Below, one piece after another: positions 45,178 to 63,080 of a stretch of DNA of 64,000 nt; the first letter of the stretch is position 1; each line of letters opens with the position of its first letter. The stretch is from Salipiger thiooxidans (GTDB taxonomy: Bacteria; Pseudomonadota; Alphaproteobacteria; Rhodobacterales; Rhodobacteraceae), in the NCBI RefSeq assembly GCF_900102075.1, contig NZ_FNAV01000009.1, positions 186,001 to 250,000 on the forward strand, in the 5' to 3' direction. The position numbers and the translations under genes are program-made. The notes under the pieces are model-generated. The model was not told the origin of the DNA. It saw nothing but the letters and a program-made list of their open reading frames with translations, and searched no databases.

Positions 45178-45815
45178 GCCGCGCCAAGCTCCTCCAGAAG
45201 CTGGGCGGTGGTCACCTGCCGGCAGTAACCCCTGATGGTCCGGATCGAATGGTCGTGGCGCTCCTGCGTGTAGGTCAGGCAGGCGTCGGTGACCTCGGTC
45301 ACGAGGTAGCCCAGATCGCAGGCGTCGCGGATGGCGCTTTCGACGCACTGGTCGGTGATGAGCCCGCTGATCACCAGCTGCCTCACCCCGAGATTGCGCA
45401 GGATGTAGTCGATATGGGTCGAGACGAAGACCGAGGACGAGCTCTTCGGCAGCACGATCTCGTCGCCCTCGGGGGCGATCTGGTCGATGACCTTGCCGTC
45501 CCAAGAGCCCTTGGCGACGTTGAAGCCGGTGATCTTGTAGTCGAGGCTCCGGTCCCGCCCGTCAAGCGTCAGGCTCTCGATGCAGGTGTACATGACCTCG
45601 ATCCCGGCCTTGCGGCAGGCGGACTGGATCGCCTGCATGTTGGGGATCACCCGGGTCTCGAGCTGGTCGAAGAACCAGCCGTACTTCTCCGCGAACTCCG
45701 CCTCGGGCAGATCGGCGAACTCTGCGCCCTTGCGGTTGGCGCTGAAGTTCTGCACGTCGACGAAGAGCAGCGCGGACTGCTCGGGCACCAGCGGCACCTC
45801 GCGGGTGAGGGTCAT
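45174..45815 (-). CDS. isochorismatase-fold cysteine hydrolase
   Basis: A 213-residue hydrolase with the Asp-Lys-Cys triad at Asp20 (LLFVDVQN), Lys124 (VLPKSSSS) and Cys157 (GLITDQCV). These enzymes cut amides, carbamoyl groups or similar C-N bonds. The TIRGYCRQ tail is distinctive but I cannot tie it to a substrate. It is coupled by ATGA overlaps to both neighbours. Confidence 0.88.
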   Translation of the reverse strand: MTLTREVPLVPEQSALLFVDVQNFSANRKGAEFADLPEAEFAEKYGWFFDQLETRVIPNMQAIQSACRKAGIEVMYTCIESLTLDGRDRSLDYKITGFNVAKGSWDGKVIDQIAPEGDEIVLPKSSSSVFVSTHIDYILRNLGVRQLVISGLITDQCVESAIRDACDLGYLVTEVTDACLTYTQERHDHSIRTIRGYCRQVTTAQLLEELGAA

Positions 45816-51300: not shown

Positions 51301-52149
51301 ATGCAGGTCAGGGCTCGAATCGAGCGGATTTCCGGGGAAATGACCGCCACCGAGCGCCGGATCGGCGCGGCGATCCTGCTCGACTACCCGTTTGCAGGGC
51401 TGATCCCGATCCAGGAGCTCGCCCAAAAAACGAACACCTCGGCGCCGTCGATCTCGCGCTTCGTGACCAAGCTCGGCTTCCAGGGCTACGCGGAATTCCA
51501 GCGCAGCCTGATTGCCGAACTGAAGGAGGGCGAGCGTTCGCCCGTGGATCTGCAACGCACCGCCCAGCCGGTCGAGGGCGCCTATCTCGCGAGCTTCCTC
51601 AACCGCTCGGCCGCGGTCATGCAGGGTGCCTCCACCGCCATTTCCGAGGCGCAGTTCGAACGCATCTGCGCGCTGCTCGCCGACCCGAGGCGCGGCGTCT
51701 ACTTCCTTGGCGGGCGGATGAGCGACACGCTGCTGAGCTTCATGTCCCGCCACTTGCGGCAGGCCCGCGACAAGGTTCACCACCTGTCGCCCGACCCCGA
51801 GGCCTGGCCCGACCACCTGCTGCGGATGAAGCCCCGCGACGTGCTCTTCGTGGCGGATTTCCGGCGCTACCAGAAAAGCCTCGAGCGGCTCACCGAGGGC
51901 GCCGTGCGCGAGCGCAAAGTGCAGGCGGTGGTGCTGACCGACCGCTGGCTCTCGCCCTGCGCGGCACATGCCACCGAAGTGCTCGCGGTGCCGATCGACA
52001 ACGGCACGCTCTGGGACACCTACACCGGCGCCTTCGCGCTGATCGAGGCGATCGTCACGCGCATCGCCGAAACCCACTGGACCACCACAAAGACGCGCAT
52101 CGAGGCATGGGATGCCATGCGCCTCGATTTCGGAGACCCCGACACATGA
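51301..52149 (+). CDS. MurR/RpiR-family transcriptional regulator
   Basis: A 282-residue regulator: an N-terminal HTH_6 domain (MTATERRIGAAILLD, TSAPSISRFVTKLGF) and a C-terminal SIS-like domain (residues ~100-270) that usually binds a sugar phosphate or amino compound. The ATG follows GGAGAGG. It is cotranscribed with the GS-like gene (ATGA overlap) and divergent from the importer operon, its likely target. Confidence 0.9.
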   Translation: MQVRARIERISGEMTATERRIGAAILLDYPFAGLIPIQELAQKTNTSAPSISRFVTKLGFQGYAEFQRSLIAELKEGERSPVDLQRTAQPVEGAYLASFLNRSAAVMQGASTAISEAQFERICALLADPRRGVYFLGGRMSDTLLSFMSRHLRQARDKVHHLSPDPEAWPDHLLRMKPRDVLFVADFRRYQKSLERLTEGAVRERKVQAVVLTDRWLSPCAAHATEVLAVPIDNGTLWDTYTGAFALIEAIVTRIAETHWTTTKTRIEAWDAMRLDFGDPDT

Positions 52150-53459
52150 TCTCAGATCCCCTCGTATTCGCCGCCACCTCGGACATCGCCGGCAAGCTGC
52201 GCGGCAAGGCCTTCCCGCTGTCGCAGATCGAGAAGCGCTTGAAGCGCGGCGTCGGCTGGACTCCCACCAACGTGCAGATCACCTGCTTCGACGCCATCGC
52301 GGATAGCCCCTTCGGCGCGCTCGGCGACCTGCTGCTGATCCCCGACAGCGAGACCACCGTGGCGCTCGATTACGAGGACGGCGGCCCGGTCGAGCGGCTG
52401 GCGCTGGGCGACATCACCGACCTCGACGGCACGCCGTGGTCCTGCTGCACGCGCTCGATCCTGAAGTCCGCGCTCGAGCGGCTGCGCAAGGCGGCGGGGC
52501 TCGAACTGGTGGCCTCGTTCGAGCACGAGTTCCAGTTCACCCCGACCGAGACCACGCCGGGACAGGCCTATACCTTCTCGGGCTTCACCCGCCGCCGCGC
52601 CTTCGGCGAGGCGCTCATGGCGGCGCTGGCGCAGGCCGGGCTCGGGCCGGACACCTTCATGAAGGAATACGGCCCCGACCAGTACGAGATCACCGTGACG
52701 CCCTCGCAGGGGGTGCGCCCCGCCGACGAGGCGGCGCTCCTGCGCGAGATCACCCGGCTGACCGCGCAGCGCGTGGGCGAGCGGGCGACCTTTGCGCCGA
52801 TCCTCGATCCCGACAACGTCGGCAACGGCGTGCACATCCACATGAGCTTCCTCGACGCGGCGGGCGCACCGGCCACCTACGACCCTGCCCAGCCGCAGGG
52901 CATGTCGGCCACCACCGGCAGCTTCATCGCGGGCGTGCTCAGGTATCTCGACAGCATCGTGGCGCTCACCGCGCCCTCGGATGTCTCCTACCTGCGCCTG
53001 ACCCCGCACCGCTGGAGCGCCGCCTACAACAACCTCGGCTTCCGCGACCGCGAGGCCTCGCTGCGGATCTGCCCGGTGACCGCGACCGATCCCGAGAGCA
53101 TCGCGAAACAGTACAACTTCGAGTACCGCGCCGCCGATGCCGCCGCCTCGCCCCACCTCGCGCTTGCCGCCATCGTGCACGCGGGCTGTCAGGGCATCGA
53201 GGACGCGCTGCCGATCCCCGCGGTCACCGAGGAGGACCTCTCGGTGCTTTCGGCCGAGGATCTCGCTGCGCGCGGCTATGCCCGCCTGCCCGAGACGCTG
53301 CCCGCCGCCCTCACCCGCTTTGCCGAGAACGAGACCGTCACCGGCTGGTTCCCCGAGGGCTTTGCCGAGGTCTACACCGCCCACAAGCGCGGCGAGCTGG
53401 CGTGGCTCGACGACAAGGACACCGCCGCGCGCTGCGCCGCTTACGGCACTGTCTACTGA
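52146..53459 (+). CDS. glutamine-synthetase-family ligase (PuuA/GlnT-like)
   Basis: A 437-residue ATP-dependent ligase of the GS fold. Glu127 and Glu129 in EHEFQF, KEYGPDQYEITV (173-184) and NGVHIHMSF are the metal and ATP sites. The DGSS signature of true glutamine synthetase is missing, so it more likely joins glutamate to an amine (gamma-glutamyl ligase) or acts on another amino acid. It begins inside the rpiR stop and shares its control, so it belongs to the amine/amide pathway. Confidence 0.88.
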   Translation: MISDPLVFAATSDIAGKLRGKAFPLSQIEKRLKRGVGWTPTNVQITCFDAIADSPFGALGDLLLIPDSETTVALDYEDGGPVERLALGDITDLDGTPWSCCTRSILKSALERLRKAAGLELVASFEHEFQFTPTETTPGQAYTFSGFTRRRAFGEALMAALAQAGLGPDTFMKEYGPDQYEITVTPSQGVRPADEAALLREITRLTAQRVGERATFAPILDPDNVGNGVHIHMSFLDAAGAPATYDPAQPQGMSATTGSFIAGVLRYLDSIVALTAPSDVSYLRLTPHRWSAAYNNLGFRDREASLRICPVTATDPESIAKQYNFEYRAADAAASPHLALAAIVHAGCQGIEDALPIPAVTEEDLSVLSAEDLAARGYARLPETLPAALTRFAENETVTGWFPEGFAEVYTAHKRGELAWLDDKDTAARCAAYGTVY

Positions 53460-53540: not shown

Positions 53541-53560
53541 ACCTGTCTAGACCTGTCTAC
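53541..53560. promoter_or_regulatory. GntR operator
   Basis: ACCTGTCTA is directly repeated at 53541 and 53551, and the junction forms the palindrome GTCTAGAC (53545-53552), as in HutC/PhnF-type operators. It lies 25-45 bp before the gntR ATG, so autoregulation is likely. Confidence 0.55.
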
Positions 53561-53585
53561 CATACATAAAGAGACAGGAGGACGG

Positions 53586-54290
53586 ATGAAGCAGAGCGCC
53601 GCAGAATCGAAGTCCCAGCGCATCGCGCGGGTGCTCGAGGCCGAGATCCGCTCGGGCACGCTCACCGACGGCGCGGCGCTGTCCAGCGAGAACGCGCTTG
53701 TCGAACGCTTCGCCGTCTCGCGCACCACCGTCCGCAAGGGGCTCGGCATCCTCGCCGCCAAGGGGCTCATCCGCACCAAGGTCGGCATCGGCTCCTTCGT
53801 GACCTACGGCGGCGCGGTGATCGACAGCGGCTCGGGCTGGAGCCTGTCGCTGGCGGATGGCCGCGCCCGGCTCGGCACCCGCATCCTGCGCATCGCGCGG
53901 CTTCCCATGGACCTCGACGACCCCGCCCCGCAGGGCGAGATGCTGGCCGTAGACCGCATCCGCTTTCGCGAGGAGACCGGACAGGGCCTGACGCTGGAAC
54001 GCGCCCGGGTACCGTGGCGCGACGATTACGAAGCCGTCCTGTCCGAGGGGCTCAACGGCGGTTCGCTGAGCCGCACGCTTGCCGCACGCGGCCTGTCGCC
54101 CGCCACCGGCGAGGAATGGGCCAACGTGCTCTGCGCCCTGCCCGCCGGGGACGCGGCGCTCATGGGACGACGCGCCGGAGAGCCGATGCTGCGCCTGCGC
54201 CGCCTGACCCGCGACGGCCACGGCGGGCTGTTCGAATACGTGGAAAGCGTGCTCGACCCCGAGGTCTTCGGCCTGCACATGGAATTCTGA
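53586..54290 (+). CDS. GntR/HutC-family regulator (YegW-like)
   Basis: A 234-residue regulator with an N-terminal winged helix (NALVERFAVSRTTVRKGLGIL) and a C-terminal UTRA ligand domain (GLTLERARVPW, GLFEYVESVLDP). It is the first gene of the operon with the ADP-ribosylglycohydrolase and PfkB kinase, the same trio as E. coli yegW-yegU-yegV. It most likely senses the pathway substrate. The ATG follows ACAGGAGGACGG. Confidence 0.9.
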   Translation: MKQSAAESKSQRIARVLEAEIRSGTLTDGAALSSENALVERFAVSRTTVRKGLGILAAKGLIRTKVGIGSFVTYGGAVIDSGSGWSLSLADGRARLGTRILRIARLPMDLDDPAPQGEMLAVDRIRFREETGQGLTLERARVPWRDDYEAVLSEGLNGGSLSRTLAARGLSPATGEEWANVLCALPAGDAALMGRRAGEPMLRLRRLTRDGHGGLFEYVESVLDPEVFGLHMEF

Positions 54291-54292
54291 CG

Positions 54293-55306
54293 ATGACTGC
54301 AACCGCCCTTCCCTGTCTCGCCGAAACCCGCGCCACCGCCGCCCTTGCAGGCCTGGCCGTGGGCGACGCGCTGGGGATGCCCGCGCAGACGCTCCCGCGC
54401 GGGGTCATCCGCGAACGCTACGGCCGGATCACCGGACTCGTGGCGCCTTTCGACGGCCACCCGATCAGCCACGGGCTGCGCGCCGGACAGGTCACCGACG
54501 ACACCGAGCAGACCCTGCTTCTGGCGCGCCGCCTAATCGCCGAGCCTCAGGGCTTCGACGACGCGGGCTGGGCGCGCGACCTGCTGGAGTGGGAGGCCGG
54601 GATCCGCGCCAAGGGGCTTGCGGACCTGCTGGGGCCGTCCTCGAAGGCTGCCATCGAGGCGCTGCTTGCCGGCACGCCGCCCGAAGAGACCGGCCGTCGC
54701 GGCACCACCAACGGCGCGGCCATGCGCATCGCCCCGGTGGGCATCGCGACCCCGCCCGACGTGGCGCAGATCGCCGCCCGTGTGGCCCGCACCTGCCGCG
54801 TGACCCACAACACAGGCGAGGCCATCGCCGCCGCCTCGGCCGTGGCCATGGTTGTGAGCGCTGGCGTCGCCGGGCAAGGCTTCGACGCGTCGCTCGATCC
54901 GGCGCTGGCATCGGCCCGCGCAGGTCAGGCCCTTGGCAACGCGGTGGGCGAGCCCGACGTGGCGGGACGCATCGCGCTGGCGCTCGAGATCGCCGAAACC
55001 GGCGACGAGGAGCAGCTCATCGCCACCATCGGCAGCTCGGTCGCAAGCCGCGAGAGCGTGCCCATGGCCTTCGGACTGCTGCGGCTGGCGCGGGGCGACC
55101 TGTGGCAGGCGCTGCTCTCTGCCGCCAACATCGGCGACGACACCGACACCATCGGCGCCATTGCCGGCGCCATGGGCGGCGCCACCGGCTGCCCGCTGCC
55201 CGACACGGTGGTGGCCGAGGTCACCGAGGCCAGCGGGCTCGACCTCGCGCCCGTGGTCCGCGCCCTTCTGGCCCTGCGCCAAGGAGGCACCCCATGCCCC
55301 GGCTGA
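54293..55306 (+). CDS. ADP-ribosylglycohydrolase family protein (YegU-like)
   Basis: A 337-residue metal-dependent N-glycosidase. The Mg ligands sit in TDDTE (68-72) and NIGDDTDTIG (279-288); GDALGMPAQ is the N-terminal mark. The family removes ADP-ribose or other ribosyl groups from N-linked aglycones. The ATG lies 2 bp after the gntR stop. Next to a PfkB kinase, it may cleave a ribosylated small molecule rather than ADP-ribosylated protein. Confidence 0.9.
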   Translation: MTATALPCLAETRATAALAGLAVGDALGMPAQTLPRGVIRERYGRITGLVAPFDGHPISHGLRAGQVTDDTEQTLLLARRLIAEPQGFDDAGWARDLLEWEAGIRAKGLADLLGPSSKAAIEALLAGTPPEETGRRGTTNGAAMRIAPVGIATPPDVAQIAARVARTCRVTHNTGEAIAAASAVAMVVSAGVAGQGFDASLDPALASARAGQALGNAVGEPDVAGRIALALEIAETGDEEQLIATIGSSVASRESVPMAFGLLRLARGDLWQALLSAANIGDDTDTIGAIAGAMGGATGCPLPDTVVAEVTEASGLDLAPVVRALLALRQGGTPCPG

Positions 55307-56196
55307 TGCAGATGACCGGCCCGGTGATCGACCTCGTCTACCGGGTGCGCGCGCTTCCCGCCTCGGGCGAAGAGGCGGTGGTCACCGGTTTCGAGATGAC
55401 CGTGGGCGGCGGCTTCAACGCGCTGGCCGCCGCGCGGGCCGCAGGGATCGAGGCCACCATGGGCGGCACGCTCGGCACCGGCCCCTTCGGCTACACTGCC
55501 GCTGCGGCGCTCGGCGACCGCGACATCGCCTGCGCGCGCCCGCCGATCCCGGATCACGACCAGGGCTGCTGCACCGTGATGCTGGAGCCCGACGGCGAGC
55601 GCAGCTTCATCGCCTGGCCCGGCGCCGAGGGCCGGATCACCGCCGAGGCGCTTGCCACCATCGACCTCGCGCCCGTCGATTGGGTCATGGTCTCGGGCTA
55701 CACGCTGCACTACCCCGACGCCCGCGACGCGCTGGCCAGCTGGATCGAAGAGCTGCCCCGCGACCGGCGCTTCCTCTTCGACCCCTCGCCGATGATCGCC
55801 GAGCTGCCGCCCGCGCTCGTCGACACCCTGCGCAACCGCGCCGACTGGATCAGCGCCAATAACGTCGAGGCGCGCGTGATGACCGGCCACACCGACGCCG
55901 AGGTCGCGGTGCGCGCGCTGGCATGGGGCCGTCAGGGCGCGCTGGTGCGCCTTGGCGCCGAGGGCTGCCTGATGGCCACCAAGGGCACCCTGCACCGCCT
56001 TCCCGCCCACGAGGTCACGCCCGTCGACACCAACGGCGCCGGCGACTGCCACATCGGCAGCTTCGTGGCCGAGCTGTCGCTCTCGGGCGACCCGCTGCGC
56101 GCCGCGCGCTACGCCAACATCGCCGCCGCCCTCTCGGTCACCCGCCCGGGCCCCGCCACGCCGCCCGACCGTGACGAGGTGCTGGCGCTGCTCTGA
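55294..56196 (+). CDS. PfkB-family sugar kinase (YegV-like)
   Basis: A 300-residue ribokinase-fold kinase. GGGFNALAAARAAG (38-51) is the sugar site and DTNGAGD (245-251) holds catalytic Asp251 and the anion hole. It should phosphorylate the sugar freed by the upstream glycosidase. The ATG has AAGGAGG 7 nt upstream and overlaps the glycohydrolase gene by 13 bp; the longer frame is a shadow. Confidence 0.92.
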   Translation: MPRLMQMTGPVIDLVYRVRALPASGEEAVVTGFEMTVGGGFNALAAARAAGIEATMGGTLGTGPFGYTAAAALGDRDIACARPPIPDHDQGCCTVMLEPDGERSFIAWPGAEGRITAEALATIDLAPVDWVMVSGYTLHYPDARDALASWIEELPRDRRFLFDPSPMIAELPPALVDTLRNRADWISANNVEARVMTGHTDAEVAVRALAWGRQGALVRLGAEGCLMATKGTLHRLPAHEVTPVDTNGAGDCHIGSFVAELSLSGDPLRAARYANIAAALSVTRPGPATPPDRDEVLALL

Positions 56197-56246
56197 ACCC
56201 CGACAAGAGGGCCGCAAAGGCCCCGAACCCCAACATGGAGACGACA

Positions 56247-57281
56247 ATGACCAAAGGACTTCTTTCCCTCTCGCTGCTCGCGCTCACCGCGTCAGGCGCG
56301 CTTGCCGACGAGATCCGCGTGCTCAACTGGCAGGGCTACGGCACCGACCTCGGCTGGTCGCTCGAGGCGTTCGAGGCCGCCACCGGCCACAGCGTGGTGC
56401 ACGAGTACTTCAATTCCGAGCAGGAAATGCTCACCAAGATGCGCACCAACCCCGGCGCCTATGACGTGGTGCTGATCAACGCGGCCTACACCACGCAGGC
56501 CTACGAAGAGGGTCTGCTGGCGGCCATCGATACCGCCGCCATCGGGAACTACGCCGGTATCCCCGCCAACTTCGCCGAGGACCCGAGCCTGGTGCACAAG
56601 GGCGCGGTCTACGGCGTGCCGTGGACCTGGGGTCTGACCGCCATCGCCATCAACACGCAGGCCTTCGATGAGGCGCCGACCTCGCTCGAAGTGCTGTGGG
56701 ATCCCGCGCACAAGGGCCGCGTCTCAATCCGCGACGATGCCGAGGAAGCGGTGCACCTCGGCGCGCTGGCCACCGGTCAGGACATCAACAACATCGAGGA
56801 TCTCGACGCGGTCGAGGCCAAGCTCAGGGAGCTGATGCCGCAGCTGCGCACCTTCTGGGCCTCGGAGAACGACTGGAACCAGTTCATGGCGGCGGGCGAG
56901 CTCGACGTGGCGAGCTACTGGTCCGGCTCGGCGGCACGCTCGGCGGGCATGGGCCTGCCGGTGGAGTTCGTCGTGCCCAAGGAAGGCGCCATCGCCTGGC
57001 TCGACGGGCTGTCGATCCCCGAGACCTCCGAGCACAAGGAGGCCGCGGCCCAGTTCATCGACTGGATGATCGACCCCGAGTTCTATGTGAAGTGGGACGC
57101 CGAGGGCGCCCCCGCCTCGGCCAATGCCGATGCCGCCGCAGCACTGCCGGACGACGCCTTCAACAAGCGCGTTCTGGGCGATCCCGAAGTGGTCAAGCTC
57201 GCCAAGTTCCGCGCGCCCATGGACGATGCCACGCGCGAGAAATACCTCGCGCTCTGGCAGAGCCTGAAGGCCGCCCAGTAA
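56247..57281 (+). CDS. periplasmic binding protein, PotD/type II fold
   Basis: A 344-residue binding protein with a signal peptide (MTKGLLSLSLLALTASGALA, then DEIRVLNWQGYG). It matches the spermidine/putrescine-type family. The usual polyamine-binding acidic residues cannot be judged by eye, and the operon argues for another cationic or ribosylated ligand. The ATG at 56247 is preferred over 56235 because GGAG lies 6 nt upstream. Confidence 0.9.
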   Translation: MTKGLLSLSLLALTASGALADEIRVLNWQGYGTDLGWSLEAFEAATGHSVVHEYFNSEQEMLTKMRTNPGAYDVVLINAAYTTQAYEEGLLAAIDTAAIGNYAGIPANFAEDPSLVHKGAVYGVPWTWGLTAIAINTQAFDEAPTSLEVLWDPAHKGRVSIRDDAEEAVHLGALATGQDINNIEDLDAVEAKLRELMPQLRTFWASENDWNQFMAAGELDVASYWSGSAARSAGMGLPVEFVVPKEGAIAWLDGLSIPETSEHKEAAAQFIDWMIDPEFYVKWDAEGAPASANADAAAALPDDAFNKRVLGDPEVVKLAKFRAPMDDATREKYLALWQSLKAAQ

Positions 57282-57306
57282 GCCGCTGACGAGACGAGGG
57301 AAAGTC

Positions 57307-58170
57307 ATGGCAGAGGTGATCCATGCACAGGACCGCCGGCGGCTTCTGACGCTGCTGGGCCCGGCCTATCTCTGGCTGACGCTGGCGGTGTTCCTGCCGC
57401 TCTCGGCCATGCTGTTCTTCAGTTTCCTCTCGGACATGCCCGGTGACGCCCCCGACTGGGGCGTCACGCTTGGCAACTACACGCAGTTCCTCGAGAATCC
57501 GACCTACGCCACGCTTCTGTGGAAGTCGCTGAAGCTCGGCGTCACGGTCACGCTCTTCTGCATCGTGATCGGCTACCCCTGCGCTCTGGTGCTGGCGAAA
57601 TCCATCAAGGGCCGCGCCCGCGAGGCGCTGTTCCTGATGGTCATCCTGCCGTTCTGGTCGAACTCGCTGGTGAGGATCTTCTCATGGGCCATCGTGCTGC
57701 GCGGCAATGGCGTGCTCGAACGGACGCTGAACTGGATCCTGCCCTTTGACATCAGGCTGAACCTGATGTTCACCACCGAGGCCGTGGTCATCGGGCTCGT
57801 GCACAGCTACCTGCCTTACGTGATCCTGACGAGCTACCTCGCGCTGCAGGCCATCGACGACGACCTGATCGACGCCGCGCGCTCGATGGGCGCCTCGAAG
57901 CTCACCATCCTCAACCGTCTGCTGCTGCCGCTGTCGCTGCCGGGGCTGCTGGCCGGCGCGGTGCTGGTCTTCGTGCCCGTGGTCGGCAGCTTCATGGAGC
58001 CGCGCATCCTTGGCGGGCGCATGGGCACCTATTACGGCACCGTCATCGAGGACCAGTTCGTGGCGGTCTACAACTGGCCGCTGGGGGCCGCGCTCTCGTT
58101 CATCCTGCTGGCGGTGGTGCTGGTGATCCTCGGCGCCGCCTCGCCGGTGCTGCGGAGGGCGCGGACATGA
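57307..58170 (+). CDS. ABC permease, PotB type
   Basis: A 287-residue permease with six helices and the EAA-type loop DAARSMGASKLTILNRLLLPLSLPG (only part quoted). It follows the binding-protein gene by 25 bp and overlaps potC-like by 4 bp. Confidence 0.9.
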   Translation: MAEVIHAQDRRRLLTLLGPAYLWLTLAVFLPLSAMLFFSFLSDMPGDAPDWGVTLGNYTQFLENPTYATLLWKSLKLGVTVTLFCIVIGYPCALVLAKSIKGRAREALFLMVILPFWSNSLVRIFSWAIVLRGNGVLERTLNWILPFDIRLNLMFTTEAVVIGLVHSYLPYVILTSYLALQAIDDDLIDAARSMGASKLTILNRLLLPLSLPGLLAGAVLVFVPVVGSFMEPRILGGRMGTYYGTVIEDQFVAVYNWPLGAALSFILLAVVLVILGAASPVLRRART

Positions 58171-58946
58171 GCCCCATCGCCCTGCTCGGCCGCATCTGGC
58201 TGGTGCTGATCCTGATCTTTCTCTACGCGCCGATCCTCGTCATGGCGGCGATGAGCTTCAACGCCTCGCCCTTCTACCAGCTGCCCTTCGAGTATTCCTC
58301 GAAGTGGTACAGCGACATGGCGGGCAACGAGCAGATCGTGACCGCGGCTATCCGCTCGGTGCTGATCGCCTGCGCGGTGACGGCGATCGCCACCGCGGTC
58401 GGCACCGCCGCCTCTGTCGCGCTCTTCCGCTACGAGTTCCGCGGCAAGAGGCTGCTGCAGGCGCTGCTGTTTCCGCCCATCGCCATCCCGTGGCTGATCA
58501 CCGGCACCGCCATGCTGGTGTTCTTCTTCACCATCGGCATCGGGCGCGGCACGCCCGCGGTGATCATCGGCCACGTGGCGCTGGCGCTGCCTTACGTCAT
58601 CGTGACCGTCACGGCCCGGCTTTCGTCCTTCGACGTCACGCTGGAGGAAGCCGCGCGCTCCATGGGCGCCGGTGCATGGACGGTGCTGCGCCGGGTGACG
58701 CTGCCTTGGATCGCGCCGGGGATCGTCGCGGGCGCGCTCTTCGCCTTTGCCGTCAGCTTCGACCAGTTCGTGGTGAGCTACTTCCTGTCCAAGCCCGGCG
58801 ACAGCACGCTGCCCGTGCTCATCTACACCGCCATCCGCAAGGGCTTCACGCCCGAGATCAACGCCATCTCGACGATCATCATCGCCGTCTCCATGGCGGT
58901 CATGTTCCTTGCGGCGCGCTACTCGAAATTCGGAGGGGACCGCTGA
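58167..58946 (+). CDS. ABC permease, PotC type
   Basis: A 259-residue permease with six helices and the loop EEAARSMGAGAWTVLRRVTLP. Together with the PotB-type protein it forms the membrane channel. Its stop shares one base with the ATPase start (TGATG). Confidence 0.9.
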   Translation: MSPIALLGRIWLVLILIFLYAPILVMAAMSFNASPFYQLPFEYSSKWYSDMAGNEQIVTAAIRSVLIACAVTAIATAVGTAASVALFRYEFRGKRLLQALLFPPIAIPWLITGTAMLVFFFTIGIGRGTPAVIIGHVALALPYVIVTVTARLSSFDVTLEEAARSMGAGAWTVLRRVTLPWIAPGIVAGALFAFAVSFDQFVVSYFLSKPGDSTLPVLIYTAIRKGFTPEINAISTIIIAVSMAVMFLAARYSKFGGDR

Positions 58947-59959
58947 TGTCGCAGGTCGAGGTTCGCAATGTAACCAAACGCTTCGGCCGCACGGTGGCGC
59001 TGGACGACGTGTCCATCGCCTTCGAGGACGGCGGGTTCTTCGCCCTGCTGGGGCCGTCCGGGTCGGGCAAGACGACGCTGCTGCGCACCATTGCGGGATT
59101 CCATTTCCCCGATAGCGGCAGCATCCGCATCGGCGAGCGCAACGTCGAGAAGGTGCCGGTCGAGAAGCGCGACATCGGCATGATGTTCCAGAACTACGCG
59201 CTGTTTCCCAACATGTCCGTGGCCGAGAACGTGGGCTTCGGCCTGCGCGTCCGCAAGGTCGGCTCGGCCGAGGAAACCCGCCGCGCCCGCGAGGCGCTGG
59301 AACTGGTGCAGCTCGGCCATCTGGGCGACCGGCGGCCCTCGCAGCTTTCCGGCGGGCAGCGGCAGCGGGTGGCGCTGGCACGGGCCATCGTCACCAACCC
59401 CAAGGTGCTGCTGCTCGACGAGCCGCTTTCGGCGCTCGACAAGACCCTGCGGGTGGACATGCAGATCGAGCTCAAGCGCATCCAGCGCGAGGTCGGCATC
59501 ACCACGATCTTCGTGACCCACGACCAGGAAGAGGCACTGACCCTCTCGGACCGCATCGGTATCCTGCGCGACGGGCGCATCGTGCAGGCGGGCCCCCCGC
59601 GCGAGGTTTATAACCGCCCCGTCGATGCCTTTGCCGCGGGCTTCCTCGGCGAGGCGAACTGGCTCTCCGAGGGCGCATTGGCGGGGCTTACCCTGCCCGC
59701 CGATCCCTCTGGGCGCCGCTTTGCCACGCGCCCGGAGGCGCTGGCGATCTCCGCCGCGGCGCCCGCGCCGGGGATGAACGCGGTTCGGGGCCAGCTGGTG
59801 CAGCGCGTCTTCGCGGGCGCCATGGCAACCTGCCTCGTCGAGGTGGACGGCCAGCCGTGGAAGCTCATCGCGCGCGACCGCGACATCCCCGAGCTGCCCG
59901 GCGACGGCGCGGTCTGGCTTGCCTGGGCGCCGCAGGACACGCTGGTGGTGCCGGCATGA
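58946..59959 (+). CDS. ABC ATPase, PotA type
   Basis: A 337-residue ATPase. Walker A GPSGSGKT, signature LSGGQRQRVALARA, Walker B LLLLDEPLSALD, and a C-terminal TOBE-like domain (~250-337) are present. The ATG behind GGAGGGGACCGCTG is chosen; the longer frame is a shadow of potC-like. It overlaps the final gene by ATGA. Confidence 0.92.
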   Translation: MSQVEVRNVTKRFGRTVALDDVSIAFEDGGFFALLGPSGSGKTTLLRTIAGFHFPDSGSIRIGERNVEKVPVEKRDIGMMFQNYALFPNMSVAENVGFGLRVRKVGSAEETRRAREALELVQLGHLGDRRPSQLSGGQRQRVALARAIVTNPKVLLLDEPLSALDKTLRVDMQIELKRIQREVGITTIFVTHDQEEALTLSDRIGILRDGRIVQAGPPREVYNRPVDAFAAGFLGEANWLSEGALAGLTLPADPSGRRFATRPEALAISAAAPAPGMNAVRGQLVQRVFAGAMATCLVEVDGQPWKLIARDRDIPELPGDGAVWLAWAPQDTLVVPA

Positions 59960-60498
59960 GCGAGGTGCTTCTTGTCATCGACATGCAGCCCGGTTTCGGC
60001 CACCCAGAAAGCCCGTGGTGCACCCCCGGCTACGACCTCTGCGCCGAGCGCATCGGCGCCCTCGCCGCGGGCTTCGCGGGTCGCGCACTCTTCACCCGCT
60101 TCGTGCCGCCCGCCGAGCCCTCGGGCGCGTGGCTGCCCTATTACCAGGCCTGGCCCTTTGCGCTGGATCCGGCGCAGAGCTGGCTCTGGGAGCTCGATCC
60201 GCGCTTTTCGGGTCATCCCGAAGTGACCGGCCACCGCTTCGCCAAGTGGCGCGAGGCCATTTCGCACGTTCCCGAAGACGCCACTCTGGTGATCTGCGGG
60301 GTGGCGACCGACTGCTGCGTGCTGGGCACCGCGATCGAGGCGGTGGACGACGGCCGCCACGTGCGGCTGGTCACCGACGCCTGCGCGGCCGGGACCCAGG
60401 CGCTGCACGAGGCCGCCATCACCGTGATGCGCGACCGCGCGCCCATGCTGACGCTGACCGACACCGAGACCGAGCTGGCGCGGCTGCTCGAGGACTGA
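59956..60498 (+). CDS. isochorismatase/nicotinamidase-fold hydrolase
   Basis: A 180-residue hydrolase with the triad Asp9 (VIDMQ), Lys97 (FAKW) and Cys121 (GVATDCCV). The short size and layout recall nicotinamidases, but the metal-binding DxHxxH of those enzymes is not visible. It overlaps the ATPase stop by 4 bp and ends the operon. It may deamidate the base released by the glycohydrolase. Confidence 0.88.
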   Translation: MSEVLLVIDMQPGFGHPESPWCTPGYDLCAERIGALAAGFAGRALFTRFVPPAEPSGAWLPYYQAWPFALDPAQSWLWELDPRFSGHPEVTGHRFAKWREAISHVPEDATLVICGVATDCCVLGTAIEAVDDGRHVRLVTDACAAGTQALHEAAITVMRDRAPMLTLTDTETELARLLED

Positions 60499-60632: not shown

Positions 60633-63080
60633 TCAGCCCTTGCGGAGGAGCCGTGGCGGTCGGGTCAGCCCCGAGGCATCGGGCCAGAGGTCCCCGGCAA
60701 AAGGCGTGCCCGCGTAAAACCGGTTGGCGCCGGTGTTCATCACCTCGATCTCCAGCAGATGTTGACCCGCCGCGACCTCGCCCAGCGGCAGGCGGAACGG
60801 CGCGTGGGACACGGCGCCGTGCTCGGCGCCGTCGAGCCTGACATGGGCCGCACAGGCAAGCCCCGGCAGCTCGAGCGTCAGCGCCATGGGGTCGGTGAGC
60901 GTGAAGCGACAGCTATAGCGCCCGACGCCGGAGAACGCCGGATCGCCCTGTGCCTGCCAGCCCTCCGTCACGCTGATCGCCCGGGCCGCGCCCGATGTCG
61001 CAAGGGTCCAGCCGTCGCGCAGCTCCATGACCGGGACGAGCGCGGGCTTGGGCAGCCACGCTACGTCCGTGACGGGCTCCGCCTGCCGCAAACGAAGCAA
61101 ACGCAACTCCTGCGGGTCGAGCGCCAGTGACAGGCGGCGCGACGGCTCGGGCGGACCGGCCTCGCAGACGAGCCCGGCGCCGAGGGTCAGCTGGGCCTCG
61201 AGTGGCGCGTCGCCCTCGTTGAAGAGTGCCACGCGCCACCAGCCTTCCGCGTCCCGCCCGGCCACGAGGCTGCGCAGCCCGGTGCGTTCGGAGATCTGCG
61301 GCAGGTCGGGGAGCGCGGCGCCGATGTCCTGCTCCTCCGGCATCCCTCGCCAGAGAGGCAGGCCGAGTGCCTCGGCGCGGGCCAGCACCTCCGGGTCCCG
61401 CAAAGCCGTCACCTCCGGCAGCACCAGCGCCGCCACATCTTCACCGTGGATCCGGCACCCGCCGTCCATCGCCGCCAGCCCGTCCTCGTCGACCACCAGC
61501 GGCGGGTGCCCCAGCGCCACCAGCCGCTCGGCCCAGCGGCCGAAGGTCTGCGCATGGGCATGGCGCGGGCCCTCGGTCAGCGCGGTCTCGTAGGGATAGA
61601 GCAGCGCGATGCGGGGGGGCGGCGCGGCGCCTTCGATGAAATCCGCCAGAGCCTCCGCCTCCGAGGCCAGCGCCCCCATCACGGGCCACCATGGTTGCAG
61701 GTTGTAGCCGGGCGCGAAGTCGAACCGCAGGTTGTCGAGCGCCGAAGGCGTGGCATCGCCCTCCGACGCGAAGAGTGCATGCAGGATCACCCGGCTGGCG
61801 CCCAGCATGTGCAAGCGGATGAGCTGCGCCCGCAGCGCCTGCGGCGTCATCTCCCACTGGCCCGCGGCGCGGGTCTCGGAGCGGGAGGCGGTCACGTAGA
61901 GCTCGCACCAGCAGCCGCGGCGACCGCTGGCCCGCGCGATGCTGTCGCCGAGCAATGGGGCAAGCTGGGCGTCGAGGTTGTTGGCGTCCACCGCCGTCAC
62001 GTCGCGCCAGCGGTCGGTGCCGAAGAAATCCGCCGCCAGCGCCGCCCGCGGGTCGATGCTCGAGAACCCGCCATTGAGCGCGAAACTCGCCACGTGCGGC
62101 AGGATCTCGTGCCCGGTGAGCGCCAGCCCGTTACGGTCGCAGAAAGCGCGGAGCGAGCCGAGGAAGCTTTGCTGGAAGAGCGCGGTATAGGTCCGATAGA
62201 CGTGGCTGCGGGTCGCACGCGCTCCGGGCAGATCGCGCAGCAGCGCCGCAAGTTGCAACGCCAGAGGCCCCCGCGCCACGAGTGACGCGGCGAAGCCGTC
62301 GCTCCAGAGCAGGCTGTTGCCGAGATTGCCCGTGCGCCCCTCCCAGTCGTAGAGCACCGGCGCGGGCTGGTCGAAGAACAGGCAGTGCACCGGATCGGGC
62401 AGCAGGCCCGCAAGCGCCCGGGCATAGGGCTCGAGCCCCTTCTCGACGAAGCGCGCCCCGGCCTCGGGCAGCAGGTAGTTGATGACGCGGGAGTTGGCGA
62501 TGCGGGCGCGGGCGAAGAGTGTCCAGCGGGCGCCCTCGGGCAGCGAGTGGTCCAGCCGCGCGGTCATCCCGTCGGCCCCGACGGCCACGATGCGCACCGC
62601 GTCGGTCACGTCGCGCACGCTTCCATCCGCGGACCAGAGCACGGCAGCCACCGGCGCCCAGTCCGCCAGCCGCGGCGCGCCGTCCTCGTGGATCCAGTTG
62701 CGCACCGCCGCGCCGAGGCTCGCACCCAGCGTCGCCCGGATACCGGCGATGGTCGCGTCGCGCCCGGTGCTCTCGGCCCAGAAGAGATGCGTCTCGCGCA
62801 GGTGGTCGGCGCCTTCGACGGTGCGCCCGCCCGCCTGCCCGCTGCTCCAGGCGTAGTCGTCGTAGAGCCCCGCCCGCAGTCCGAGCCCGGCCATGATCCG
62901 CACCGCCTGCGCATAGGCGGCAAGGTACTCGGGCGAGAGGTAGAGCGCGCGCGGCATCGACAGCCGCGCCTGGATGTAGATCGTGCCAAAGCCCTGCGCG
63001 CGGAACCCGGCGAGCTGCGCGCGCATCTCGGCCTCGGTCGGCAGGCCGGACCAGAACCAGTAGGCGTCGAGCCGGCTCAC
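60633..63080 (-). CDS. GH106-like glycosidase
   Basis: An 815-residue protein. The N-terminus (YWFWSGLPTEAEMRAQLAGF, GFGTIYIQARL, LYDDYAWSSGQAGG) fits the GH106-type alpha-L-rhamnosidase catalytic domain. The last ~170 residues look like a galactose-binding beta-sandwich (YSCRFTLTDPMALTLELPGL). There is no signal peptide, so it is cytoplasmic. Catalytic residues were not assigned. It follows eutC by 10 bp, an unexpected partner. Confidence 0.75.
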   Translation of the reverse strand: MSRLDAYWFWSGLPTEAEMRAQLAGFRAQGFGTIYIQARLSMPRALYLSPEYLAAYAQAVRIMAGLGLRAGLYDDYAWSSGQAGGRTVEGADHLRETHLFWAESTGRDATIAGIRATLGASLGAAVRNWIHEDGAPRLADWAPVAAVLWSADGSVRDVTDAVRIVAVGADGMTARLDHSLPEGARWTLFARARIANSRVINYLLPEAGARFVEKGLEPYARALAGLLPDPVHCLFFDQPAPVLYDWEGRTGNLGNSLLWSDGFAASLVARGPLALQLAALLRDLPGARATRSHVYRTYTALFQQSFLGSLRAFCDRNGLALTGHEILPHVASFALNGGFSSIDPRAALAADFFGTDRWRDVTAVDANNLDAQLAPLLGDSIARASGRRGCWCELYVTASRSETRAAGQWEMTPQALRAQLIRLHMLGASRVILHALFASEGDATPSALDNLRFDFAPGYNLQPWWPVMGALASEAEALADFIEGAAPPPRIALLYPYETALTEGPRHAHAQTFGRWAERLVALGHPPLVVDEDGLAAMDGGCRIHGEDVAALVLPEVTALRDPEVLARAEALGLPLWRGMPEEQDIGAALPDLPQISERTGLRSLVAGRDAEGWWRVALFNEGDAPLEAQLTLGAGLVCEAGPPEPSRRLSLALDPQELRLLRLRQAEPVTDVAWLPKPALVPVMELRDGWTLATSGAARAISVTEGWQAQGDPAFSGVGRYSCRFTLTDPMALTLELPGLACAAHVRLDGAEHGAVSHAPFRLPLGEVAAGQHLLEIEVMNTGANRFYAGTPFAGDLWPDASGLTRPPRLLRKG

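Follow-up and report, generated by a model that had tools for sequence, protein, structure and literature searches.

A conserved ADP-ribosylglycohydrolase and PfkB kinase pair with exchanged importers: a candidate pyridine riboside operon in Salipiger thiooxidans

Introduction

In Escherichia coli, the yegTUV operon and the adjoining GntR-family regulator GgaR/YegW combine an ADP-ribosylglycohydrolase-family (ARH) enzyme, YegU, and a PfkB-family kinase, YegV, with an importer, YegT, a nucleoside-type symporter of the major facilitator superfamily. The functions of the three operon genes are described as unknown in the part of PMC10819704 drawn on here. We describe an operon of related composition in Salipiger thiooxidans, located in a 64,000-nucleotide stretch (RefSeq assembly GCF_900102075.1, contig NZ_FNAV01000009.1, positions 186,001 to 250,000) that we call the window. 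It has a PotDBCA-type ATP-binding cassette (ABC) importer and no YegT, and may serve the use of a ribosylated pyridine compound. Among the listed titles and abstract openings of the open-licence literature, we found no description of an operon joining ARH, PfkB and an importer.

Other described systems share parts of this arrangement. Human ARH1 and ARH3 have the family, fold and metal motifs of the operon ARH and cleave an alpha nicotinamide–ribose bond, although they act on ADP-ribosyl substrates and outside any import operon. The ARH-family enzyme DraG has the loop AGNGAAMR where the operon ARH has TTNGAAMR. The PotABCD spermidine importer has the same four subunits as the importer in the window. 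The pseudouridine glycosidase PsuG belongs to a family unrelated to ARH. Its operon, psuT-psuK-psuG, follows the same logic, with an importer, a PfkB kinase and a glycosidase that together yield ribose 5-phosphate and a base (PMC9247573). The nicotinate (nic/naa) pathway, which includes the isochorismatase-fold amidase NicF, adjoins the operon in three ARH lineages but is not found in the window; as outlined in the portion of PMC6403243 cited here, it begins at nicotinamide or nicotinate and has no riboside step.

Results

An eight-gene operon

Eight intact genes, identified from the sequence and Pfam profiles, occupy positions 53586–60498 on the plus strand. A GntR-family regulator with a UTRA ligand domain (53586–54290; PF00392 5.3e-15, PF07702 3.1e-07) is followed by the ARH enzyme, the predicted core catalytic step (54293–55306; PF03747 2.4e-59, with TDD and GDDTDT motifs), and by a PfkB-family sugar or riboside kinase (55294–56196; PF00294 7.4e-39). 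The importer genes come next: a PotD-like periplasmic substrate-binding protein (SBP) of a distinct clade (56235–57281; PF13416, SBP_bac_8, 1.4e-31), PotB-type and PotC-type permeases (57307–58170 and 58167–58946; PF00528, BPD_transp_1, 5.6e-18 and 3.8e-16), and a PotA-type ATPase with a TOBE domain (58946–59959; PF00005 2.2e-37, PF08402 7e-08). The last gene, an optional part of the operon, encodes an isochorismatase-fold cysteine hydrolase, which we refer to as the amidase (P0008; 59956–60498; PF00857 2.8e-21). In gene order the exact starts and stops leave junctions of +2, −13, +38, +25, −4, −1 and −4 bp. The packing is thus looser than in an initial reading of the letters alone (the sequence-only reading), which had nearly all genes overlapping by 1–13 bp: four of the seven junctions overlap (13, 4, 1 and 4 bp), and three are gaps of 2, 38 and 25 bp.

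Among the matches listed, none of the operon proteins reached a curated NCBIfam cut-off, and therefore none carries a curated function. The nearest was the PotA-type ATPase, slightly below the cut-off of a PotA subfamily model (348.2 against 355.6 bits). All four importer subunits scored below the curated PotABCD cut-offs (PotD 150.9/582, PotB 206.9/348, PotC 219.3/326, PotA 339.7/482).

The enzyme pair is conserved and the importer is exchanged

Searching genome contigs with the ARH protein gave matches in at least 594 stretches, at least 508 of which encode relatives, and the best 80 loci were kept. The survey reported here covers 108 ARH-bearing loci (L numbers), picked by similarity rather than by random draw, with gene content mapped by tblastn. 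A PfkB gene is paired with ARH in 105 of them. The importer is PotDBCA-type (hereafter Pot-type) in 56 loci, an NCS1 permease in 39 and YegT in 7; none was seen in the remaining 6, four of which lie at contig ends. In the two loci profiled, L054 (Pseudomonas) and L074 (Streptomyces), a PF02133 permease is encoded between ARH and PfkB; for the other loci, similarity is the basis of the NCS1 label. At least four changes of importer are required on a tree built from 96 ARH rows. This tree leaves out loci with stop codons in the match range (L039, L047, L048, L058, L076), contig ends, fragments, breaks and a duplicate (L016, L018, L021, L028, L043, L044, L059, L134, L164), short duplicates (L001, L083–L111), and sequences from the window's own genome or repeats (L159–L161). 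Because PfkB is nearly always present while the importer label changes repeatedly on the tree, the ARH and PfkB pair is a stable core and the importer an exchanged slot. The view of the sequence-only reading that a PotDBCA-type importer takes the place of YegT here fits this variability.

Members of Rhodobacterales, Rhizobiales, Halomonas and Burkholderia share this gene order, so the arrangement is not a product of chance; the sequence-only reading had been staked on a conserved neighbourhood, and conserved it is. The gene set is nevertheless patchy in distribution. A close ARH was found in 4 of 149 genomes drawn from the window's family, its own genome among them, and an ARH at E≤1e-25 in 26 of 398 genomes of a phylum draw, again including its own. 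In a family of the same class, probably Rhizobiaceae (family f10, that of genome G534), ARH was present in 10 of 101 genomes. A class draw gave 1 of 385, the window's own genome; at most five candidates were scored per genome among the matches listed, so this count may miss copies.

Two loci deserve separate mention. In the gammaproteobacterium Halomonas olivaria (L018), the operon is 54–83% identical to that of the window, a likeness that points to horizontal transfer; in this assembly, stop codons fall within the ARH range. A plasmid of Paracoccus liaowanqingii (L134) carries an ARH fragment covering 43% of the query with no annotated gene under it, probably a remnant.

Nicotinate-degradation genes adjoin the operon in three lineages

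Genes for nicotinate degradation adjoin the operon on three ARH tree branches, those of Paracoccus, Aurantimonas/Fulvimarina and Burkholderia. Clusters bearing NicX stand beside it in L008, L046, L050, L051 and L137, and the NicX label requires at least three changes on the tree. A group of four genes, closely related from locus to locus, lies directly 5' of the operon in L008 (Paracoccus tibetensis) and likewise in the Fulvimarina and Aurantimonas loci L046, L050 and L051; the latter three have a sodium/solute symporter gene between this group and the GntR gene. The third gene in L008 matches 2,5-dihydroxypyridine 5,6-dioxygenase, NicX (7cn3, 1.4e-91), and the fourth matches maleamate amidase (4l07, 5.4e-95). 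The other two, to which Pfam assigns alpha/beta hydrolase and Amdase domains, we take to be NicD and NicE from their position and resemblance. There are relatives of nicA and nicB as well. No nic-specific NCBIfam model was found for the 5' genes of L008; a Rut-type uracil breakdown pathway was considered for them and dropped in favour of Nic when the dioxygenase matched 7cn3. In Burkholderia stagnalis (L137), a Pot-type operon is followed on its 3' side, on the other strand, by NicB-, NicF- and NicX-type genes that share 56, 44 and 43% identity with their L008 counterparts. At larger distances on the same contig, NicX lies ~21 kb from ARH in Jiella (L080), and nic genes lie ~83 kb from ARH in L053.

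We also compared whole genomes, taking 50 of the 56 Pot-type loci (48 genomes; L016, L028, L133, L135, L136 and L137 were left out). Of these 48 genomes, 13 had NicX at E≤1e-100; in random draws, 5 of 149 and 4 of 101 had it (Fisher 1.8e-6, uncorrected for kinship and with genome G534 standing on both sides). This enrichment is weaker than its p value because it is seen only in ARH and Pot genomes reached by similarity and is absent within the random draws. Under random placement, two adjacent lineages among the 13 genomes, within 14 kb in 4.5 Mb, would arise with p ~0.003. In 9 of the 13 genomes, the nic genes fall beyond the stretches taken around ARH, though two of these nine, L080 and L053, have them on the ARH contig; the 18-kb nic stretches that were examined gave no ARH match.

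Looser resemblances were seen at two further loci. Directly 5' of the operon in Ruegeria conchae (L036, 5544–8240) is a molybdenum-hydroxylase pair weakly like nicA/nicB (41%, 25–34%). Elsewhere in the window's own genome (L191; C26, 101000–119000), a nicA-like iron-sulphur subunit gene (43%) lies near two NicF-like isochorismatase genes (34–36%).

The ARH enzyme and the kinase

The ARH protein scores 201.8 bits against the PF03747 cut-off of 26.2, and its metal motifs (T68 D69 D70 and D283 D285 T286) are invariant across 20 aligned members. Its AF2 model (pLDDT 94.0) has MJ1187 as best match in the Protein Data Bank (PDB), followed by DraG and ARH3, including a structure of ARH3 with alpha-NAD+ (7arw). 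It falls below the equivalog cut-offs for the ADP-ribosyl-protein hydrolases DraG (TIGR02662, 82.8/337.05) and Tri1 (NF041672, 62.2/490). It is 34% identical to YegU over 327 aa, and the motif TNGAAMR is common to YegU and the operon ARHs. ARH1 and ARH3 are reported to hydrolyse alpha-NAD+, ARH1 yielding ADP-ribose and nicotinamide and leaving beta-NAD+ unused in the accounts cited here (PMC9738213, PMC8319183, in part). Because both human enzymes act on alpha-NAD+, cleavage of an alpha pyridinium riboside bond counts as known chemistry of the family, demonstrated on a dinucleotide.

The kinase is 30% identical to YegV over 297 aa and differs from PsuK at several sites. We compared it with ribokinase (RbsK), of which we take N14, D16, G42, N46, E143 and D255 to be the ribose-contact residues. 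N14, K43 and E143 are not kept; D16, G42, N46, D255 and the GAGD motif are.

A modified binding-protein site

At the ligand-site positions of E. coli PotD, whose numbering and roles we assume here, the window SBP reads W34 G36 Y37 N83 A85 D168 E171 W229 W255 D257 A293 R327. The operon SBPs retain W34, Y37, D168, E171, W229, W255 and D257, that is, 7 of the 12 positions compared. They differ from PotABCD consistently at four others: E36G, S83N, Y85 to a small or aliphatic residue, and Y293A (S in L006). Q327 is variable and is R in the window. Some rows are incomplete, and L024 has I at position 171. Other SBPs within the same loci show different patterns. The signature of the operon clade fits a site for a cationic ligand other than a simple polyamine.

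Two loci, L157 and L158, combine a PotDBCA importer of the same SBP signature with the amidase and have no ARH match in the stretch. These sets suggest a related, non-ribosylated substrate. They would also suit the signature if the shared part of the ligand were the cation with its amide, which is conjecture.

The amidase is an optional part

The amidase scores 76.8 bits against a cut-off of 27 for the isochorismatase-like cysteine hydrolase profile. We take a D-K-C triad to be the catalytic mark of this family; D9 and C121 are invariant in 14 aligned relatives, and K97 is kept in the closer ones. Its AF2 model (pLDDT 95.2) is closest to 3hb7, an uncharacterised isochorismatase-like hydrolase, and then to NicF, N-carbamoylsarcosine amidohydrolase, biuret hydrolase and maleamate amidase; the first pyrazinamidase/nicotinamidase stands at rank 39 among the best 50 structure matches. 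PDB matches by sequence are weak and include putative nicotinamidases. Relatives of the amidase close the operon in eight near relatives (L003–L007, L009, L013, L018), and the gene is found near ARH again in a member of the Microbacteriaceae (L060) and in L024.

Five plasmid records also hold relatives. The best, at 48.6% (L162, plasmid CP031593), has no ARH in its stretch; it follows an amino-acid-type importer and lies one luciferase-like monooxygenase gene away from nicA-nicB. The same set of importer, monooxygenase and amidase is present in the window's own genome (L156, at C49), where nicA-nicB had no match in the surrounding 19 kb. Both L156 and L162 have in a row two luciferase-like monooxygenase genes, the amino-acid-type ABC importer and the amidase relative, which looks like a pathway for an N-heterocycle amide.

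Regulatory sequences and flanking genes

Operator-like repeats lie 5' of the regulator at 53541–53578, with direct repeats ACCTGTCTA at 53541–53549 and 53551–53559 and an inverted AGACAGG at 53572–53578; read from the sequence, this candidate is weak. TGTCTA-type boxes occur at −43 and −33 in L009 and L003 and are variable in other loci. A conserved TGTCTAGACA operator was rejected, as it was not general over the 91 loci compared.

An RpiR regulator gene and a glutamine-synthetase-like gene (51301–53459, plus strand) end 126 bp 5' of the operon; the best NCBIfam match of the latter is gamma-glutamylputrescine synthetase, below the cut-off (248.7/650 bits). Among the mapped ARH loci, no stretch from outside the window's own genome had these two genes, and we rejected them as pathway members for this reason. 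On the 3' side, an 815-aa protein is encoded on the minus strand, facing the operon (60633–63080). It is conserved at 57–64% beside the operon in six relatives (L003–L007, L009), had no Pfam match and no PDB sequence match, and may be a component of the system within this clade. A second isochorismatase-fold gene lies ~8 kb 5' of the operon (45201–45776, minus strand), with sigma-54 activator and flavin monooxygenase genes farther 5'.

Discussion

A tentative pyridine riboside route

What can be read directly in the sequence is the set of genes, the conserved enzyme pair with its exchanged importers, the SBP signature and the repeated nic adjacency; from these we infer a substrate, its anomer, the order of steps, the regulation and the role of the amidase. 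We read the gene set tentatively, with a confidence somewhat short of even, as serving the breakdown or salvage of a cationic N-ribosyl pyridine; nicotinamide or nicotinate riboside is the most likely candidate, perhaps as the alpha anomer. Capture of the cationic riboside would fall to the Pot-type binding protein and its import to PotBCA; ARH would hydrolyse the bond that joins ribose to the pyridinium nitrogen; and the kinase would supply ribose 5-phosphate, either from released ribose or from a riboside phosphorylated before the ARH cut. The freed nicotinamide or nicotinate would feed into NAD salvage or, where there are nic genes, into degradation of the ring. In the operons that carry it, the cysteine hydrolase probably takes off an amide. 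The GntR regulator may sense the substrate or a product. Nicotinamide riboside, which the sequence-only reading had named as one possible substrate, gains support from the nic neighbours, from the retention of the PotD acids in the SBP and from the published ARH chemistry on alpha-NAD+. The other importers of the ARH loci belong to nucleobase- or nucleoside-type families (by PF02133 profile, and with YegT as a nucleoside:H+ symporter, NHS), and the yeast nicotinamide riboside carrier Nrt1 is of the NCS1 family (PMC7697741).

Several observations weigh against this proposal. NicX adjacency is confined to 5 of the 108 loci (5 of 56 Pot-type and 0 of 39 NCS1-type), and within the random draws NicX was present in 0 of 4 and 1 of 10 ARH genomes, no excess over chance. 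In the window's own genome NicX had no match, though the same query finds it elsewhere. The DxH...H motif, which we take to be the metal-binding motif of the nicotinamidase PncA, has no DxH counterpart in the amidase, and a PncA-like protein that does carry DxH is encoded elsewhere in the window's genome (at C33). The amidase is absent from most copies of the operon, being present in 11 of 108 loci, or 10 without L012, a 31% match on the other strand. Amidase relatives on Agrobacterium fabrum plasmids (36%, four records) lack nic genes nearby in the one record opened. The suggestion of the sequence-only reading that this enzyme deamidates the base thus keeps its isochorismatase-fold hydrolase, but an optional one whose model resembles nicotinamidases less than it does maleamate and N-carbamoylsarcosine amidases; action on a vitamin B3-related amide is plausible, that of a classical nicotinamidase is not. 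The sequence-only reading had also equated regulator, ARH and kinase with yegW, yegU and yegV. The two enzymes are homologous to YegU and YegV, but the regulator is no more than a GntR look-alike, its similarity to YegW limited to 62 aa of the helix-turn-helix DNA-binding domain (32%), so that with YegT missing as well the operon is not an orthologue of yegTUVW in all four members. In the ARH tree YegU itself stands apart from the operon ARHs, on a long branch of its own; a function shared with it is for this reason hypothetical, and carrying the pyridine-riboside idea over to E. coli would be a stretch.

Characterised ARH enzymes act on 5'-phosphorylated (ADP-)ribosides, which bears on the order of the steps. 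The kinase is not a canonical ribokinase: it scores 106 bits against the TIGR02152 cut-off of 299.65, and with N14, K43 and E143 of RbsK not kept, residues whose functional roles we assume, free ribose is not assured as its substrate. The phosphorylation of ribose put forward in the sequence-only reading therefore stands as to the PfkB family and the GAGD motif and is unproven as to free ribose. An order in which PfkB phosphorylates the riboside at O5' and ARH then releases ribose 5-phosphate and the base, as PsuK and PsuG do in pseudouridine breakdown (PMC9247573), is a variant on order and not on substrate, and we hold it to be a substantial minority possibility. Yet D16, both glycines, N46 and GAGD of RbsK are kept, most of them in PsuK too, and sequence cannot settle the acceptor.

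The same chemistry might instead serve another ribosylated compound, such as a modified nucleoside with a positive charge (1-methyladenosine, 7-methylguanosine) or another N-ribosyl heterocycle, with the nic neighbours reflecting general islands of N-heterocycle catabolism. We consider this unlikely, but the least so of the readings with a different substrate or role: YegT belongs to a nucleoside symporter family, NCS1 transporters generally carry nucleobases and similar molecules (PMC11633122), and NicX is scarce beside the operon and unmatched in the window's genome. Three separate nic adjacencies, and a nicA-nicB neighbour of an amidase relative, would not be expected for purine or pyrimidine substrates. 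YegT, moreover, did not transport xanthosine, uridine or cytidine according to the part of PMC11241209 cited here, which excludes three plain nucleosides and for YegT only.

A link to glycogen through ADP-glucose or ADP-ribose has been proposed for E. coli, where GgaR reportedly acts as a repressor of yegTUV and responds to ADP-glucose (PMC10819704); the Agrobacterium fabrum amidase relative that was opened also sits among glycogen/trehalose and stress genes, without ARH. For the present operon we give this very little credence and set it aside, as its GntR regulator matches YegW in the DNA-binding domain alone. No glycogen gene stood among the annotated features around four plasmid ARH copies, where no systematic search for such genes was made, and the PotABCD importers known to us carry polyamines, not nucleotide sugars. 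We regard as equally improbable a polyamine importer joined to an ARH that removes ADP-ribose from a protein or small amine, with no ribosyl compound imported. That 7 of 12 polyamine-site positions are kept in a PotABCD-like importer, and that the ARH family includes DraG and ADP-ribosylarginine hydrolases, speaks for it; we set it aside because E36, S83, Y85 and Y293 are consistently changed in the SBP clade and because NCS1 or YegT replaces the importer elsewhere. A sugar kinase is also ill-suited to protein repair, and no ADP-ribosyltransferase gene was seen among the annotated features around the ARH copies opened, no dedicated search having been made.

Implications

Most work on the ARH family concerns its role in erasing protein ADP-ribosylation, and the YegU–YegV pair of E. 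coli is without a known substrate. A conserved operon in which ARH goes together with a kinase, with one of three unrelated types of importer and, recurrently, with nicotinate breakdown yields a short, testable list of substrates. A wider claim, which we regard as doubtful, is that these operons represent an undescribed, widespread pathway in which ARH acts as a small-molecule glycosidase rescuing or consuming alpha-nicotinamide (or nicotinate) riboside, with exchangeable importers. If that were true, an alpha-riboside pathway would amount to the handling of NAD-derived epimers and would give the orphan enteric yegTUV genes a function. If the proposal for the operon itself were confirmed, it would constitute a bacterial route dedicated to ribosylated vitamin B3, perhaps in its alpha-anomeric forms.

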